The notes under the pieces: generated by a model
The model's database searches: none
Told to the model about the DNA's origin: nothing
What the model saw: the letters and a program-made list of their open reading frames with translations, nothing else
Part shown: one piece after another, positions 3,776 to 15,969 of the stretch
Numbering within the stretch: the stretch's first letter is position 1
How the letters are laid out: every line of letters begins with the position of its first letter
Program-made: the position numbers and the translations under genes
Virus record (IMG/VR): IMGVR_UViG_3300048822_000001
Coordinates: 1-20,266 of that record
Strand: one strand, 5' to 3'
Source of the DNA: a virus
DNA length: 20,266 nucleotides

Positions 3776-4614
3776 ACAAAAAGAAACAAGCGTGGGCAAA
3801 TCAGCGCAAGCCGGAATATCTTCGGGGCAAAGCCTTAAACCCGAATGCCGCTATTGAGGCGCGATATCACGCAGCCCTGTCTTTGCTGATAACCCGCATG
3901 TGCCGGCAGACTGAAAAAGAGATCAGGGCGCTATTCGCCGAGCCTCACGCGAAAGAGTATTTTGCGCAGGATGAGACAATATCGGCGCAGGCCAAATTCG
4001 TGATGAAGGCGTTACGCGCGCGCACGAGCCAGATATTCAACATTGCGGCAAAGCCTATCGCCGAAAAGATGACCCACGCCGAGTCGAAGTCCAGCGCGCT
4101 ATCGCTTAAGACAAGCCTCGAGGCACTCTCGGAAGGTCTTTCGCTCAAGACCGACTTTATAACCGGCGACCTCAAGGAAGTGCTGGCGGCCACGATTACG
4201 GAGAACGTGGGGCTTATTAAATCGATCCCCGAGCAATACTTCACGCAGATCGAGGGGGCCGTAATGCGGTCTATTACCACGGGCAACGGCCTGCAAGACC
4301 TAGTGCCGTTCATTAAGAAATACGAGGGGATTACGCTCCGGCGCGCGCGGATCATAGCCAGAGATCAGACGCGTAAAGCATTCTCAAACCTTAACTTCGC
4401 GCGCATGGATAAGGTCGGGGTCAAACAATACGAGTGGCTCCATTCGTCAGGTGGACAAAAACCCCGTAAACTCCACCAGCGCATGAGCGGAAAAGTCTAC
4501 CGGATAGACAACCCTCCGGTAATAGATGATAAGACCGGCCAGCGTGGAAAGCCCGGCGACCTGATTAACTGCCGGTGCAGAGCCATCCCAATAGTCTCTT
4601 TTGCCGAGGCGTAA
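3772..4614 (+). CDS. Minor head / head morphogenesis protein (Mu gpF, SPP1 gp7 type)
   Basis: This 280-residue protein is expected inside or at the portal vertex, where Mu gpF and SPP1 gp7 homologues act in head assembly or DNA ejection. The N-terminal 180 residues are mostly helical and charged. The C-terminal part has the family signature: RRARIIARDQTRKAFSNLN, then ARMDKVGVKQYEWLHS, the PRKLHQRMSG stretch, a PPVIDDKTG loop, and the closing Pro-Gly-Asp-Leu-Ile-Asn-Cys-Arg-Cys-Arg with cysteines at residues 267 and 269. The conserved Arg-Asp, His and NCRC residues are all present. The ATG overlaps the preceding stop (ATGA), and the stop overlaps the next ATG (TAATG), so it is coupled on both sides. 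The family call is strong; the exact role differs between phages. Confidence 0.85.
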   Translation: MNKKKQAWANQRKPEYLRGKALNPNAAIEARYHAALSLLITRMCRQTEKEIRALFAEPHAKEYFAQDETISAQAKFVMKALRARTSQIFNIAAKPIAEKMTHAESKSSALSLKTSLEALSEGLSLKTDFITGDLKEVLAATITENVGLIKSIPEQYFTQIEGAVMRSITTGNGLQDLVPFIKKYEGITLRRARIIARDQTRKAFSNLNFARMDKVGVKQYEWLHSSGGQKPRKLHQRMSGKVYRIDNPPVIDDKTGQRGKPGDLINCRCRAIPIVSFAEA

Positions 4615-4973
4615 TGTCCGGGATCGACCTCCAGCCGCTTTTCAGTAAGGAAAGTTGCTTCTGGTGCGACGGACCAATGTTCGACCGCGAGACGATAGAG
4701 GCATATCCCGAACTCCATCAATTCCGGCGGCACATAAAAACGCGAGATCACCTCGTCCCTCTAAAAGACGGCGGCGCGGGCTTTACGGTGCCGTGTTGTT
4801 TTAACTGCAATCACGCGAAGGGTAGTCTCGACCCAATGGAGTTCCGCGATAAATACCGTCCCGATGTTCCGGTCGAGAAAGTGGTTCAAGCGTTGCTCGA
4901 CGCGAAGCTGGCACACGTTGCGGTCGCCCCGCGCAAAAAACGGGTGACGAAGCGTCGGCGCGTGGTAAGATAA
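4614..4973 (+). CDS. HNH endonuclease
   Basis: This is a 119-residue HNH-fold nuclease starting at the ATG that overlaps the upstream stop (TAATG). An earlier in-frame ATG at 4575 lies inside the preceding gene and is less likely. Visible motifs: zinc knuckle half CFWC (Cys15, Cys18), the catalytic first strand TRDHLVPL (Asp45-His46), and the second half CCFNCNHAKG (Cys62, Cys65, Asn66, Lys69-Gly70). The C-terminus is very basic (PRKKRVTKRRRVVR), fitting DNA binding. Phage HNH proteins of this size are either free-standing homing enzymes or packaging-associated nucleases acting with terminase. The position between two head genes fits both, and the base composition is like its neighbours, unlike the GIY-YIG gene further on. 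The HNH call is secure; the biological role is not. Confidence 0.88.
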   Translation: MSGIDLQPLFSKESCFWCDGPMFDRETIEAYPELHQFRRHIKTRDHLVPLKDGGAGFTVPCCFNCNHAKGSLDPMEFRDKYRPDVPVEKVVQALLDAKLAHVAVAPRKKRVTKRRRVVR

Positions 4974-11326: not shown

Positions 11327-12058
11327 CCTGTCGTCGCCCTAAAAATACAATCAATTCCATACACTTATATATTGGAATGGACATCCCATAAGAAGCGTTA
11401 TATCGGGGCGCGTTGGGCTAAAAATTGTCATCCAGATGACCTATGGAAAGATTACTTTACTAGTTCCGAATACGTTAAAAAATTCGTTGAGATTAATGGC
11501 CCACCGGACATTATTTTAATTGATAAAATATGCTCTACGCCCCAAGAGGCAATGCAGCGCGAACAGGAATTACAGTATAAATTTGATGTTAGGCACAACG
11601 ATCAATTTTTAAATAAAAGTATTACAGGCGTTTGGAATCATTCAGACCCAGAAATTATTGAAAAAGGAGTTTCCAAAAGGCGCGGTCGAAAAGCTTCCCC
11701 CGAATGGGTAGCTTGGGTCACAGAATTTCATCGCACACGCAAACGTTTGCCAGAAACTGGTCGACGAATCAGTAAGGCAAACAAAGGAAGGAAACTAACG
11801 CAAGAACAAGCTAAAAATTGCGGTAATGCTTGGCGTGGTAAAAAACAACCTGCAGAAATGATTTTAAAAAGATCAGTGGCTTTAATCGGAAACAAAAGCC
11901 GCACTGGACAAACTTTTTCAGAAGAGACGCGTCAAAAAATGAGAATGGCTAGCCGTCATCTACCTAACCCCATTGTAACTTGCCCGCATTGTGATAAAAG
12001 TGGAGGCAAGGGGCCGATGATTAGGTTTCACTTTGATAAGTGTAAGCAGAGGAAATAA
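11324..12058 (+). CDS. GIY-YIG homing endonuclease with NUMOD3-like repeats and zinc finger
   Basis: This is a free-standing homing endonuclease. Counting from the ATT at 11324 (244 residues), the GIY-YIG domain is complete: Tyr-Thr-Tyr-Ile at 13-16, Tyr-Ile-Gly at 26-28, Arg30, and later a Glu in QREQELQYKF and an Asn in DQFLNKS. Next come NUMOD3-type DNA-binding motifs (GRRISKANKGRKLTQEQAK, then QTFSEETRQKMRMAS) and a terminal zinc-finger-like CPHCDKSGG with HFDKC. Starting at TTG 11372 would remove the first catalytic strand (YTYIL), and that TTG has no ribosome site, so I favour ATT. The gene is visibly AT-richer than its neighbours and separates neck and sheath genes, both signs of later insertion. 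A decayed start codon (pseudogene) or a sequencing error remain possible. Confidence 0.85.
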   Translation: MPVVALKIQSIPYTYILEWTSHKKRYIGARWAKNCHPDDLWKDYFTSSEYVKKFVEINGPPDIILIDKICSTPQEAMQREQELQYKFDVRHNDQFLNKSITGVWNHSDPEIIEKGVSKRRGRKASPEWVAWVTEFHRTRKRLPETGRRISKANKGRKLTQEQAKNCGNAWRGKKQPAEMILKRSVALIGNKSRTGQTFSEETRQKMRMASRHLPNPIVTCPHCDKSGGKGPMIRFHFDKCKQRK

Positions 12059-12063
12059 CTCTC

Positions 12064-13596
12064 ATGCCAATCCCAATTTCTAATTACTGTTTAATCACCA
12101 GCGGTGTCGGCGGTGGCAATAACGTCTCGACGCGCAGTCTCGGTGCGTTGGTCATCAGCGGAAACCCACTCATCCCGACCGGCGCGGTTGTCAGCTTCAC
12201 ATCTGCCGCAGCGGTTGGGACGTATTTCGGAACATCGTCCGAGGAATATCTGCGCGCTGTATTTTACTTTGGCTGGATCAGCAAGAATATCTCGCAAGCG
12301 AATCAGATCAGCTTCTGGAACTGGAACAACGACGCAGCGACCGGGTCTCTCATTTACGGGGCGCAGGAAACCTTCAATCTCTCGACATTTACGTCCATTA
12401 CCACGGGCGATTTTACCCTCACGCTGGGCGGCTATACAGACCACCTTACGGGCGTTAATTTTAGCGGCGACGCCAGCCTTGCCGCGGTCGCGGCGACCCT
12501 CCAAGCGGCTATACGCGCGGTCTCTGCGGGCGGTGCGGCGTGGACGGGTGCGACGGTTGCCTATAACGCTACCCCCACGCAGGGCGGCCTGCCTCAATTT
12601 ACCCTCACCAGCGGCACAACCGGAACGGATGTCGTATCGGTCACGGCTGGCTCAATAACCGACATGGCGGGGCCACTGGGGTGGCTCACGGGCGCTATCC
12701 TCTCCAACGGTACGGCAGCGCAGACGATCACTACCAATCTTAATAACCTGATTAACCTGACCAACAATTTCGGCTCGTTCTGCTTTACGACCGCTCTGGC
12801 GCCAGTATTGGCGACCATCGAAGCGGCTGCGAACTGGAACAACAGCCTCACGCCGAATAACCAGTTTATGTTCCTCGTCTCGATCACGGCGGCCAATGCA
12901 TCGACGTGGTGCGCGGGCCTCGCCACTATCGGCGGGTGCGCTGGCGTTCTCGTCTCCCCTCAAGCGGGCGCATATTCCGAGATGGAACCGATGATGATTC
13001 TGGCCGCGACAGACTACACGAAGCGGAACAGCGTCCAGAACTATATGTACCAAGAGTTTAACGATACAGCCTCCGTTACGACCGGCGCGCTTCAAGCCAC
13101 GTACGACGCGCTTTTGCTCAATTACTACGGCAACACCCAGACCGCAGGGCAACTCCTCTCGTTCTTCCAGCGCGGCGTGATGTTCGGTATCGCGACCAAC
13201 CCGCAGGACATGGGTATCTACGCAAACGAGATTTGGCTAAAAGACGCTATCGGCGCGGCGATCATGACGCTGTTGCTTTCGCTTGCCGAAGTGCCGGCCA
13301 ATACGACCGGGCAGGCCCAGCTTACGACCGCTGTTCAAGCGATTATTAACCAAGCCAAGTTTAACGGCACGATAAGTTCCGGCAAGACGCTCACGACCAC
13401 CCAGCAGCTTTACATCACGCAAGCTACCGGCAGCGCAACGGCGTGGCAGCAAGTCCAGAGCATCGGTTATTGGTTTAACGTCGTCATCACGCCGTATGTC
13501 GTCAACGGACTGACCCAGTACAAGGCCGTCTACACGCTTATCTATTCCAAGAACGATGTCATCCGCTTTGTGAGCGGCACCGACGTACTCATCTAG
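12064..13596 (+). CDS. Contractile tail sheath protein (DUF3383-type)
   Basis: This 510-residue protein polymerises around the tail tube and contracts at infection. The order sheath-tube-chaperone-tape measure supports the call, and the sequence resembles DUF3383 sheath proteins: LGALVISGNPLIP and VGTYFGTSSEEYLRAVFYFG near the start, the FTLTLGGYTDHLTGVNFSGD domain with the LAAVAATLQAAIRA helix, and a C-terminal half with SVQNYMYQEFNDTASVTTG, YANEIWLKDAIGAAIM and the final IYSKNDVIRFVSGTDVLI. The last segments are the conserved sheath core that interlocks neighbouring subunits. The start ATG lies 5 bases after the GIY-YIG stop with AGAGGA 10 bases upstream, a weaker site than the AGGGAGG at 11312 that probably served this gene before the endonuclease arrived. 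Confidence 0.85.
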   Translation: MPIPISNYCLITSGVGGGNNVSTRSLGALVISGNPLIPTGAVVSFTSAAAVGTYFGTSSEEYLRAVFYFGWISKNISQANQISFWNWNNDAATGSLIYGAQETFNLSTFTSITTGDFTLTLGGYTDHLTGVNFSGDASLAAVAATLQAAIRAVSAGGAAWTGATVAYNATPTQGGLPQFTLTSGTTGTDVVSVTAGSITDMAGPLGWLTGAILSNGTAAQTITTNLNNLINLTNNFGSFCFTTALAPVLATIEAAANWNNSLTPNNQFMFLVSITAANASTWCAGLATIGGCAGVLVSPQAGAYSEMEPMMILAATDYTKRNSVQNYMYQEFNDTASVTTGALQATYDALLLNYYGNTQTAGQLLSFFQRGVMFGIATNPQDMGIYANEIWLKDAIGAAIMTLLLSLAEVPANTTGQAQLTTAVQAIINQAKFNGTISSGKTLTTTQQLYITQATGSATAWQQVQSIGYWFNVVITPYVVNGLTQYKAVYTLIYSKNDVIRFVSGTDVLI

Positions 13597-13605
13597 GGGG
13601 AATAA

Positions 13606-14052
13606 ATGTCTTTGGACGTCTCCGGCTTTGGCCTCGTATGTAGCTTGATCGCCAGCAACACGTTTCCCAACGGGCTTGTCATCACGCAATTCGCGGCTGA
13701 TACCGACCCTCTGGATTTAAACACGGTCGATATTGCCGACGCGGAGATGGGGCTGAACGGCGACCTGATAACATGGGCGAAGGCCGTCCGTTTAAACGCT
13801 ATCCTCGCCGTCATCCCCGGAAGCACCGACGACCAGAACCTTCAAATCCTTTTTGACGCTAACCGCGTCGCGCAGGGCAAAAATAGCGTTCAGGACATCT
13901 TGACCATTACGGTCGTCTACCCCGACGGTTCTCAAGTCACTCTGACGGGCGGTAAGCTGCTCTCGGGTATGCCCGGACGCTCGGTATCGAGCAGCGGCAA
14001 GCAAAAGACGAAAGTCTACGGCATGGCCTTCCAGAGCAAGGTCGGCGGATAA
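13606..14052 (+). CDS. Tail tube protein (DUF3277-like)
   Basis: This 148-residue protein forms the inner tail tube. It follows the sheath gene after 9 bases with AGGGGGA before its ATG, and has tube-protein size and beta-rich character. Recognisable parts are SGFGLVCSLIASNTFPNGLV, the ADTDPLDLNTVDIADAEMGL region, the GDLITWAKAVRLNAILAVIP strand followed by TDDQNLQILFDANR, and a closing LTGGKLLSGMPGRSVSSSG with a terminal YGMAFQSKVGG. These fit the DUF3277-type tube proteins found next to DUF3383 sheaths. Its stop overlaps the next ATG (TAATG). Confidence 0.8.
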   Translation: MSLDVSGFGLVCSLIASNTFPNGLVITQFAADTDPLDLNTVDIADAEMGLNGDLITWAKAVRLNAILAVIPGSTDDQNLQILFDANRVAQGKNSVQDILTITVVYPDGSQVTLTGGKLLSGMPGRSVSSSGKQKTKVYGMAFQSKVGG

Positions 14053-14489
14053 TGATCGACCAGCACACCGAAGCGACGTTCGAGGACGCCTCCGGCAAGT
14101 CCCATAAATATCTGCTCTACAAAATCCCTGCCGTTGCTGGCCGTGAGATTCTGTGCCAGTGGCCGCTTACTGCGCTCCCTAAGGTCGGTGACTATTCGGC
14201 GAATGAAGGGGTAGCCCTTAAGATGCTGTCGTACGTCGCCGTCGAAAAGAACGGGACCCCTATTCGCCTATCGACCACGGAACTCGTTGATAACCACGTC
14301 CCTGACGCTGTGGTCATGATGCGTATTGAACGGGAGATGTTCAAATATAACTTCGGTTTTTTTTTGGAAGAAAAAGTCTTAACTTTCTTCGAGCGGCTGA
14401 CGGGGATGATCGACAGCAAGATTTCAGAAATGTTGACGGCTTCATTGCAACGATCATCGCCGACGGAAAAGCGACCCTCCACGAATTAA
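14052..14489 (+). CDS. Tail assembly chaperone, short (unshifted) form
   Basis: This 145-residue protein lies between tube and tape measure, the invariable position of tail assembly chaperones (lambda gpG analogue). The N-terminal part (HKYLLYKIPAVAGREILCQW, then NEGVALKMLSYVAVEK, PIRLSTTELVDNHVPD) is a compact domain; the region before the stop (EEKVLTFFERLTGMIDSKIS) is helical and the last 15 residues (SLQRSSPTEKRPSTN) are low-complexity. The chaperone coats the tape measure before tube polymerisation. Its ATG overlaps the tube stop. The gene contains a T9 run (14357-14365) from which the longer product listed next would arise. Confidence 0.8.
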   Translation: MIDQHTEATFEDASGKSHKYLLYKIPAVAGREILCQWPLTALPKVGDYSANEGVALKMLSYVAVEKNGTPIRLSTTELVDNHVPDAVVMMRIEREMFKYNFGFFLEEKVLTFFERLTGMIDSKISEMLTASLQRSSPTEKRPSTN

Positions 14490-14587
14490 GAACCATCTAT
14501 TCACTTGAGGACGCATTCTTGCTCTGGGAATGCGTAGTGATACCGCGCTATAATGCGTGGGTAGCTTCCCGGAGGCGCGCACCATGA
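14052..14587 (+). CDS. Tail assembly chaperone, -1 frameshifted form
   Basis: The -1 frame is open from 14351 to a TGA at 14585-14587. From about 14441 it reads FIATIIADGKATLHELRTIY then SLEDAFLLWECVV and PRYNAWVASRRRAP, a protein-like sequence typical of the C-terminal half of tail chaperones (GKAT...EL...YSLEDAFLL). That frame has no ATG, GTG or TTG before the TTG near the tryptophan-rich end, so it can hardly be translated other than by frameshifting from the upstream gene. With slippage at the T run the product has about 178 residues (104 before and 74 after). The TGA overlaps the tape-measure ATG (ATGA), as expected for a real gene end. This is the lambda G/GT arrangement; without the shift 95 bases before the tape measure would be unexplained. 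Confidence 0.8.
14357..14390 (+). promoter_or_regulatory. Probable -1 frameshift signal: T9 run and stem-loop
   Basis: Nine Ts at 14357-14365 give a slippery T-TTT-TTT heptamer in the right phase (14357-14363). A perfect 7-bp stem follows, GAAGAAA (14367-14373) with TTTCTTC (14384-14390) and a 10-base loop. The spacer after the heptamer is short (3 bases) and the stem is AT-rich. Transcriptional slippage on the T run is an alternative. Confidence 0.6.
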
Positions 14588-15969
14588 CCACCGTTGACAC
14601 CTTCGTCTATCTTTTTAAGTCGGACACTAAGGGCGCGAGCGACGACGCGAATAAGCTCGACCAGCAGATCAGCCAGCTTGCGGCAAAGGGCGATAAGCGC
14701 ACCGAGAAAGAGGAAAAGCAGCTTAAGGAGTTGCGGAAACAGCGCGTCGCCTACACCCAAGACCTTCGCGACCAGACCAAACTTATCGACAAGCAGGCCG
14801 AGAGTACCGATAAACTCGCTGATTCGCTCGTCAGCGTCGGTGTTTCAGCGATAGCGGCGTTTGCCGGATTCGAGGGGATAAAATCAATAGCTTCGGATGC
14901 GCTTAACTTGAACCTCAACCTCCAACAGACGCGCGCCCTTACGGGGCAAAACGCCGAGGAGATACAGGCGTGGGATCAGGCCTTCGAGCGCCTCGGAGCG
15001 CCCGGTGGGGCTTTTACAAAGTGGTTTACGACCTATTCCCAATACCTCCAGCGGACGGGGCAAGATACCAAGCAAATCCTCCCTTTCCTGCGGTCGCTTT
15101 CCGACGAAATTAAGAACCTCCCCGAGGATCAGGGTCGCCAGCGTTTCCAGCAAGCGGCACAGGCTTTCGGTCTGCCACAGGAGTTTTATCTCGCTTTACG
15201 CGAGGGCGGCGCGGCGCTTGATGATTTAATCCAGACACAAGAAAAATTCATAAAGGCAAACAAGGCCAGCGAGGACTCGACACGCTCTTTCGTGGCGTCT
15301 TTACAGAACCTCGGATCGTCGCTCGTCGGGCTTTTCTCTCGAATTCTCGGGCCGCTGACGGGGTTCCAGACATCGTGGAACAATATCCTTGCAACTCTGA
15401 TATCCGGGAATTTTAGCGCGGGGTCTTTGATAAGCGCAGCGCTCACTGGTTTTAAGGGCCAGTCGAACCCTGACAATGGAAATAATGCGTCAAAAGTTCT
15501 GCCCTTAATCTCACAATACGAAAGCGGCAACAGAAACGTCTTAAACGCCAGCGGCCCGGGAGGAACTCCTGCCTCTACCGCAAGCGGCTATTATCAGATC
15601 ACCAACGGAACGTGGCAAGATTTTGCTCCGAAAGCCGGGGTTTCCTTAAAGCAATACCCGACGGCCATGTCCGCCCCCCAAGACGTACAGCAAAAAGTTG
15701 CCGCTCTCCTTTATAACCAACGCGGAATCGAGCCGTGGTCGTCCGATACGAGGCTGCTTGCGGCATTAGGGAAAGACACGGTCGCGCAGGCCGATTCGAG
15801 CAGCTTTAATGCGCCGACCGCGGGCGGTGGAGGTTCTATCTCAATCGGAAAGGTCGAGGTACACACGCAAGCGAAGGACGCGCCCGGCATTGCCGACGCC
15901 ATTGTCTCGGAACTGCATCGCGCGTATCGTTCGGTGGTAAGCAACTGGGACGACGGGGTCGTTAAATAA
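14584..15969 (+). CDS. Tape measure protein with muralytic domain
   Basis: This protein sets tail length and reaches into the cell envelope at infection. I choose the ATG at 14584 (461 residues), with GGAGG eight bases upstream and an ATGA overlap with the chaperone stop, over the GTG at 14557. Order: a charged coiled-coil region (about residues 15-80), a hydrophobic segment (LVSVGVSAIAAFAGFEGIKS, about 80-100), a helical middle, a second hydrophobic stretch (LATLISGNFSAGSLISAALT, about 270-290), a lysozyme/transglycosylase-like domain (about 305-400) with Glu313 in ISQYESGNRN as catalytic candidate plus SGYYQITNGTWQDFAP, and a C-terminal motif KVEVHTQAKDAPGIADAI common to tape measures. At 461 residues it is short, implying a short tail. 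Confidence 0.85.
   Translation: MTTVDTFVYLFKSDTKGASDDANKLDQQISQLAAKGDKRTEKEEKQLKELRKQRVAYTQDLRDQTKLIDKQAESTDKLADSLVSVGVSAIAAFAGFEGIKSIASDALNLNLNLQQTRALTGQNAEEIQAWDQAFERLGAPGGAFTKWFTTYSQYLQRTGQDTKQILPFLRSLSDEIKNLPEDQGRQRFQQAAQAFGLPQEFYLALREGGAALDDLIQTQEKFIKANKASEDSTRSFVASLQNLGSSLVGLFSRILGPLTGFQTSWNNILATLISGNFSAGSLISAALTGFKGQSNPDNGNNASKVLPLISQYESGNRNVLNASGPGGTPASTASGYYQITNGTWQDFAPKAGVSLKQYPTAMSAPQDVQQKVAALLYNQRGIEPWSSDTRLLAALGKDTVAQADSSSFNAPTAGGGGSISIGKVEVHTQAKDAPGIADAIVSELHRAYRSVVSNWDDGVVK

Follow-up and report, generated by a model that had tools for sequence, protein, structure and literature searches.

How does a phage make the protein domain encoded between its tail assembly chaperone gene and its tape measure gene when the open frame there lacks a start codon? 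The question is raised by a fragmentary viral contig of 20,266 bases, called the window here. The chaperone gene sits between the tube and tape measure genes, as in the lambda G/GT type, and the sheath and tube genes upstream and the tape measure gene downstream of it identify a contractile-tail module:

12064-13596, + strand: contractile tail sheath, DUF3383 (PF11863 1.9e-94, phrog_205 4.5e-55)
13606-14052, + strand: tail tube, E217 gp32-like (PF22764 8.1e-54, phrog_2420 1e-50)
14052-14489, + strand: tail assembly chaperone, short form G, 145 aa (homologues in more than 170 loci; AlphaFold model)
14351-14587, + strand: -1 frame without start codon, encoding the extension T of a putative 178-aa GT fusion (phrog_3976 9e-15)
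14429-14584, + strand: conserved, predicted helical core of the T domain (NVDGFIATIIADGKATLHELRTIYSLEDAFLLWE...; alignments and model)
14584-15969, + strand: tape measure protein (phrog_2276 5.8e-7, phrog_9570 3.2e-6)

The tail tube of E217 is gp32 (PMC10329688). No Pfam TAC family matched the window's own G, and 2 of 52 relatives weakly match Phage_TAC_15. The -1 frame overlaps G over 139 nt, and its stop codon TGA (14585-14587) overlaps the tape measure ATG at 14584 as ATGA. The first-pass annotation had described this frame as open from 14351 to 14587, devoid of a usable start and filling the space after the chaperone stop at 14489; the coordinates and a start-codon scan agree, the latter finding no ATG, GTG or TTG in the window's -1 frame before the conserved core. 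The locus is very probably a tail-assembly-chaperone gene with programmed -1 frameshifting of the lambda G/GT type, resembling E/E+E' of phage P2.

The evidence for this reading comes from relatives. A nucleotide-level comparison of the window with phage records found no match, nor did a single-protein search of viral contigs; profile searches did succeed. Using tblastn, G retrieved isolate phages of Erwinia, Yersinia, Stenotrophomonas, Pseudomonas, Leptolyngbya, and Bordetella, and T retrieved the same phages plus many others. Profile scans by tube, by chaperone and by T domain added several hundred loci; the scan pattern for the chaperone overlaps the slip motif and is biased, while the tube and T-domain scans are unbiased. 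T was located in the -1 frame of G in all 173 loci with both domains other than L128 in the first round of searching, and in 107 of 107 loci that were found via the T domain and carry this G. The same held in all three scan sets wherever both domains are complete.

This frame relation bears on the possibility that the T run was misread and that a correct sequence, with 10 (or 7) Ts, would contain GT as a single uninterrupted gene. Homopolymers are error-prone and the window is a contig fragment, yet the relation is shared by more than 170 loci, among them isolate phages and bacterial genomes whose run has just 6 Ts, and five other T9 loci exist, some with about 50% G identity to the window. 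An error is thus extremely improbable, and at the level of the family it is already refuted. It had also been proposed that a genome with 8 Ts would show a continuous frame; one T fewer does not join the frames, and 10 or 7 Ts would.

Mismatch rates at the three codon positions were 0.36/0.27/0.61 for G in frame 0 and 0.35/0.25/0.62 for T in frame -1, flattened to 0.37/0.32/0.46 in the overlap and reduced to 0.15/0.10/0.14 at the slip. By this measure frame 0 is coding upstream of the site, both frames are coding in the overlap, and frame -1 is coding past the frame-0 stop. An open frame of 79 codons is unremarkable by itself, and one might suppose that it arose by chance; the conservation of the domain, its coding periodicity in -1 and its match to phrog_3976 (9e-15) leave that supposition with a negligible probability. 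The earlier proposal that the -1 frame encodes a chaperone C-terminal domain is supported. Homologues lacking this domain had been named as a finding that would speak against frameshifting, but both frames and, in most loci, the T run were kept in the alignment. In L047 and L075, 25-28 nt separate the opening of the -1 frame from the end of frame 0, which confines the switch to the T run. The features at this position in the window are:

14357-14365, + strand: T9 slip run (aligned position T6, T7 or T9 in 145 non-redundant loci)
14357-14363, + strand: slippery heptamer T TTT TTT, in phase (sequence phase)
14360-14366, + strand: second in-phase slippery heptamer T TTT TTG, as in P2 E/E+E' (sequence phase; PMC3091744)

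The first-pass annotation had placed T TTT TTT in correct phase at 14357-14363, which is right, and had missed the second heptamer. A slip at either one leads to a 178-aa fusion, with one residue being different (GFFFGR or GFFLGR). T9 is the longest homopolymer of the window. Under an order-1 Markov model the probability of a T run of at least 9 anywhere in the 20 kb is 0.065, so its length by itself is weak evidence; the weight lies in its position, its phase and its homologues.

To examine the conservation of the site, one locus was taken from each cluster at 90% identity, 99 in all. In 95 of these non-redundant loci the last base of the codon preceding the slip is T, as against 24 expected, and 92 of 98 use TTT for the first Phe of the slip, as against a background of 60% (P 1e-14); P values for the slip codons overstate independence as a consequence of shared ancestry, and the locus set spans deep divergence. 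The nucleotides of the aligned motif N-x-[SG]-F-F vary much less than its amino acid sequence would allow. A T6 or longer run was present in 90 of 94 loci from T-domain-based searches, which are unselected for the slip. Among the 145 non-redundant loci with at least 6 Ts, the run is T6 in 84, T7 in 55 and T9 in 6. A pure T run, which had been regarded as a less usual slip site, is therefore the rule in this family, and TTTTTTG is also used by P2 (PMC3091744).

T could also be a separate small gene that is translated by coupled re-initiation. Upstream of the core, the -1 frame of about half of the relatives contains a GTG or TTG, rarely an ATG, and a start candidate with an SD-like motif is seen in 20 of 99 loci. 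Against this, the window and 52 other loci have no start codon there, the slip codons themselves are conserved, and G and T form one ORF in PB1-like phages; re-initiation is accordingly very unlikely.

In these PB1-like phages, G-T genes without a frameshift were found. When aligned by hhalign, the fused product of the window matched a single-ORF protein encoded by Luteibacter phage Pluto and Burkholderia phage WTB, the match spanning the junction (probability 96%, E 2.6e-9), and the T profile alone matched this protein at 98.7% and 1.8e-16. E217 gp42 and Bm1 CDS_0035 are further members of this family, and PLUTO_00020, the WTB protein and E217 gp42 are in-frame G-T genes that align across the junction. 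The fused product also matched phrog_20369, a tail assembly chaperone, with 7e-8 over residues 71-174, as compared to 0.03-0.05 for the separate pieces. A separate G gene is present as well in E217, Pluto and Bm1, the three PB1-like phages examined throughout. It immediately precedes the transglycosylase/tape-measure gene in E217 (gp39) and Pluto (PLUTO_00050), and Bm1 CDS_0030 lies in the corresponding stretch. The two E217 genes (locus L186; Pluto is L185 and Bm1 is L184) are:

L186:23723-24148: E217 gp39 (G)
L186:27594-28124: E217 gp42 (GT)

The domains of gp39 and gp42 (phrog_4627 and phrog_4774) are homologous to those of the window and stand in the same order, but G and GT are two genes that flank the tape measure gene: the same problem has been solved by two genes. 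The paper on the E217 structure names neither gp39 nor gp42 (PMC10329688). Their counterparts by gene order in phage Pa193, gp40 and gp43, are absent from the list of virion proteins (PMC11042391), which fits the expectation for chaperones.

Possible stimulators of the slip were looked for around the T run. The first-pass annotation had pointed to a perfect stem 3 bases after the slip:

14367-14390, + strand: 7-bp arms GAAGAAA (14367-14373) and TTTCTTC (14384-14390), perfectly complementary

The complementarity is indeed there, and base shuffling gives P ~0.02 for a stem of at least 7 bp. A role as a stimulator was not supported: the 28 nt after T9 fold at -5.4 kcal/mol with a z of only -0.53, and the stem is retained only in part by the T9 relatives L020 and L022, absent from L053 and L030, and different from the hairpin of the relatives. 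The arm TTTCTT recurs throughout the family, as loop sequence in the relatives, a conservation plausibly owed to the coding of both frames at this place, and the window's 7-bp stem is on that ground taken as probably incidental.

Across the family, the RNA from 6 nt after the slip is more stably folded than shuffled sequence, with a mean z of -1.46, versus -0.06 to -0.42 in control windows. Many loci carry a GC-rich hairpin GGGCGA...UCGCCC, or variants of it, at that distance. RNAalifold yielded no single consensus for 76 aligned downstream segments. A test of the named stem gave 57% paired cells, versus 50±2% after row shuffling, and just 25 of the 76 loci could form five or six of its six pairs; the hairpin is thus limited to a subset of loci and not universal. 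The window was found to have neither this GC-rich hairpin nor a stable structure 5-9 nt after its slip (z -0.6 to +1.0).

Upstream of the slip, an SD-like motif at 7-14 nt occurs in 39 of 99 loci where 15 are expected. GGAG at 11 nt was seen in 34 of 99 loci, about three times the prediction from codon usage, and the Glu at that distance is encoded by GAG rather than GAA in 46 of 64 cases, versus about one third elsewhere. The window has no SD-like GGAG upstream of its slip.

The T9 run may also allow RNA polymerase slippage leading to the same fusion, as had been suggested earlier: transcripts with one extra U (or two fewer) would encode GT, alone or in combination with ribosomal slippage. 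Its length favours this, as T9 exceeds the homopolymer length of 8 from which programmed transcriptional realignment is typical (PMC3711429). The suggestion is weakened by the T6/T7 relatives, which reach the same frame at the same codons with runs below that length (PMC3711429). The T9 loci lack the downstream hairpin (mean z +0.46, versus -1.31 and -1.72 in T6/T7 loci, P 4e-4), but the six of them form one weakly supported cluster in a tree and are not independent events. Pooling them as independent evidence was rejected once the tree had shown this single lineage, and their missing hairpin, amounting to about one event, is no more than suggestive. Nor does it argue against the ribosome, since TTTTTTG of P2 frameshifts without predicted downstream structure (PMC3091744). 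Upstream of T9 no convincing hairpin of the kind reported to promote polymerase slippage was found (z -1.0). Altogether, a contribution of the polymerase in the T9 loci is conceivable but unlikely. A more specific version is somewhat less likely again, namely that one lineage exchanged a T6/T7 site, where a hairpin stimulates ribosomal slippage, for a T9 without hairpin, where much of the GT mRNA arises by slippage of RNA polymerase. If true, another machine would be setting the same protein ratio.

The simplest reading would be that the ribosome slips by -1 on T TTT TTN, by analogy with P2. The frame, the site, their conservation and the coding of both frames are supported by comparison of the relatives; we infer that the slip is mainly ribosomal, and likewise its efficiency and the roles of the proteins. 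The majority of ribosomes would complete G (145 aa). A minority would slip back one base on TTT TTT or TTT TTG in T9, and would then read the -1 frame as far as the stop at 14585-14587 to give GT (178 aa). By analogy with gpG/gpGT of lambda, the G part may coat the tape measure protein and the T part may recruit tube subunits, a fixed minority of GT then starting the polymerisation of the tube.

Structure prediction supports G as a tail assembly chaperone. In the AlphaFold model of G, confidence is good as far as about residue 100, the position of the slip. In a Foldseek search of the PDB with this model, the top match was the HK97 tail assembly chaperone 2ob9 (E 0.034, prob 0.95). VIA Z scores were 9.4 for 5ir0 (PICI ORF19), 6.8 for YqbN (3klu) and 6.6 for 2ob9, versus 3.9 for the next row. 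The model of G thus resembles the HK97 chaperone-type fold, with matches of moderate score that stand clearly above the rest. The T extension is modelled as a small helical domain with a pLDDT of ~90-95 for residues 31-70. No useful match to the T-domain model was obtained in the PDB; among viral structures it weakly matched small phage proteins (ctxpQ22, ctqZP6) that were also in the list for G.

Several known systems are comparable. In lambda, gpG/gpGT have the same gene order, -1 direction, G and GT products, and a T without its own start (PMC5009743). Many T6/T7 relatives of the window have a hairpin 6 nt downstream, a point of difference from lambda, and no sequence relation between the two has been shown. 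The slip site of lambda is GGGAAAG, which differs from that of the window. P2 E/E+E', and its equivalents in the P2-like phages KS5, KS14, and KL3, share with the window a contractile tail and a -1 frameshift between tube and tape measure. The P2 slip is TTTTTTG, with no predicted downstream structure (PMC3091744), whereas in most relatives of the window the downstream RNA tends to form a hairpin; the window's run is a T9 with two registers, and sequence similarity to P2 has not been demonstrated. For TAC-N/TAC-NC of the Vandenendeviridae and Andersonviridae (phage Adele), the same comparative inference was made from a conserved poly-T (GTTTTT) slip (PMC12846349), albeit in another phage family and with a shorter T motif; the downstream TAC ORF is usually misannotated in these families (PMC12846349).

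A direct homologue with a similar tail module is present in Shewanella phage 1/41 (S141_46 / S141_47), the only one of nine frameshifting phage records examined in which a joined -1 product is annotated. Its G is only 16% identical to that of the window, and its T run is not in the phase that X XXY YYZ requires. The window is soundly regarded as a further case of the well-known chaperone frameshift with a slightly unusual, longer slip run. This reading restores a tail protein that almost all of the deposited relatives examined leave without annotation. It also suggests functions for three so far uncharacterised PHROGs, namely G for phrog_4627, in-frame GT for phrog_4774 and T for phrog_3976. 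The family supplies several natural versions of the recoding site: T6/T7 followed by a hairpin, T9 lacking one, an A AAG-like site and, in PB1-like phages, two genes. With these, the way in which phages set the G:GT ratio becomes directly testable.

The A AAG-like variant was seen in an enterobacterial clade of six loci (L001, L002, L055, L080, L090, L176), for which no nucleotide-level match was found in E. coli genomes. The -1 T domain is retained there without the T heptamer, so T TTT TTN is not universal. The heptamer is replaced by TTC TTC G[AC]A AAG TT[CT], with AAG in 6 of 6, and A AAG is possibly a tetramer slip site followed ~6 nt later by a short hairpin. In L308-L342, retrieved by the T-domain search, a T domain of the same family follows a G that the G profile does not recognise; here too T is in the -1 frame, and a heptamer, T TTT TTN or G GGT TTT, usually lies in the overlap. 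In L128 and L238, two records of one prophage, an indel inside T returns its C-terminal half to the G frame, as a consequence of either decay or sequencing error.

Elsewhere in the window, the terminase large subunit ORF (1-1815) starts inside an apparent LAGLIDADG homing-endonuclease intein (PF14528, PF05204), its N-terminal part being lost at the contig end. An HNH-like ORF with a weak match lies among the head genes (4575-4973), and a homing endonuclease-like ORF (11372-12058; phrog_314 3.6e-20, NUMOD3) is located between a tail gene and the sheath gene.
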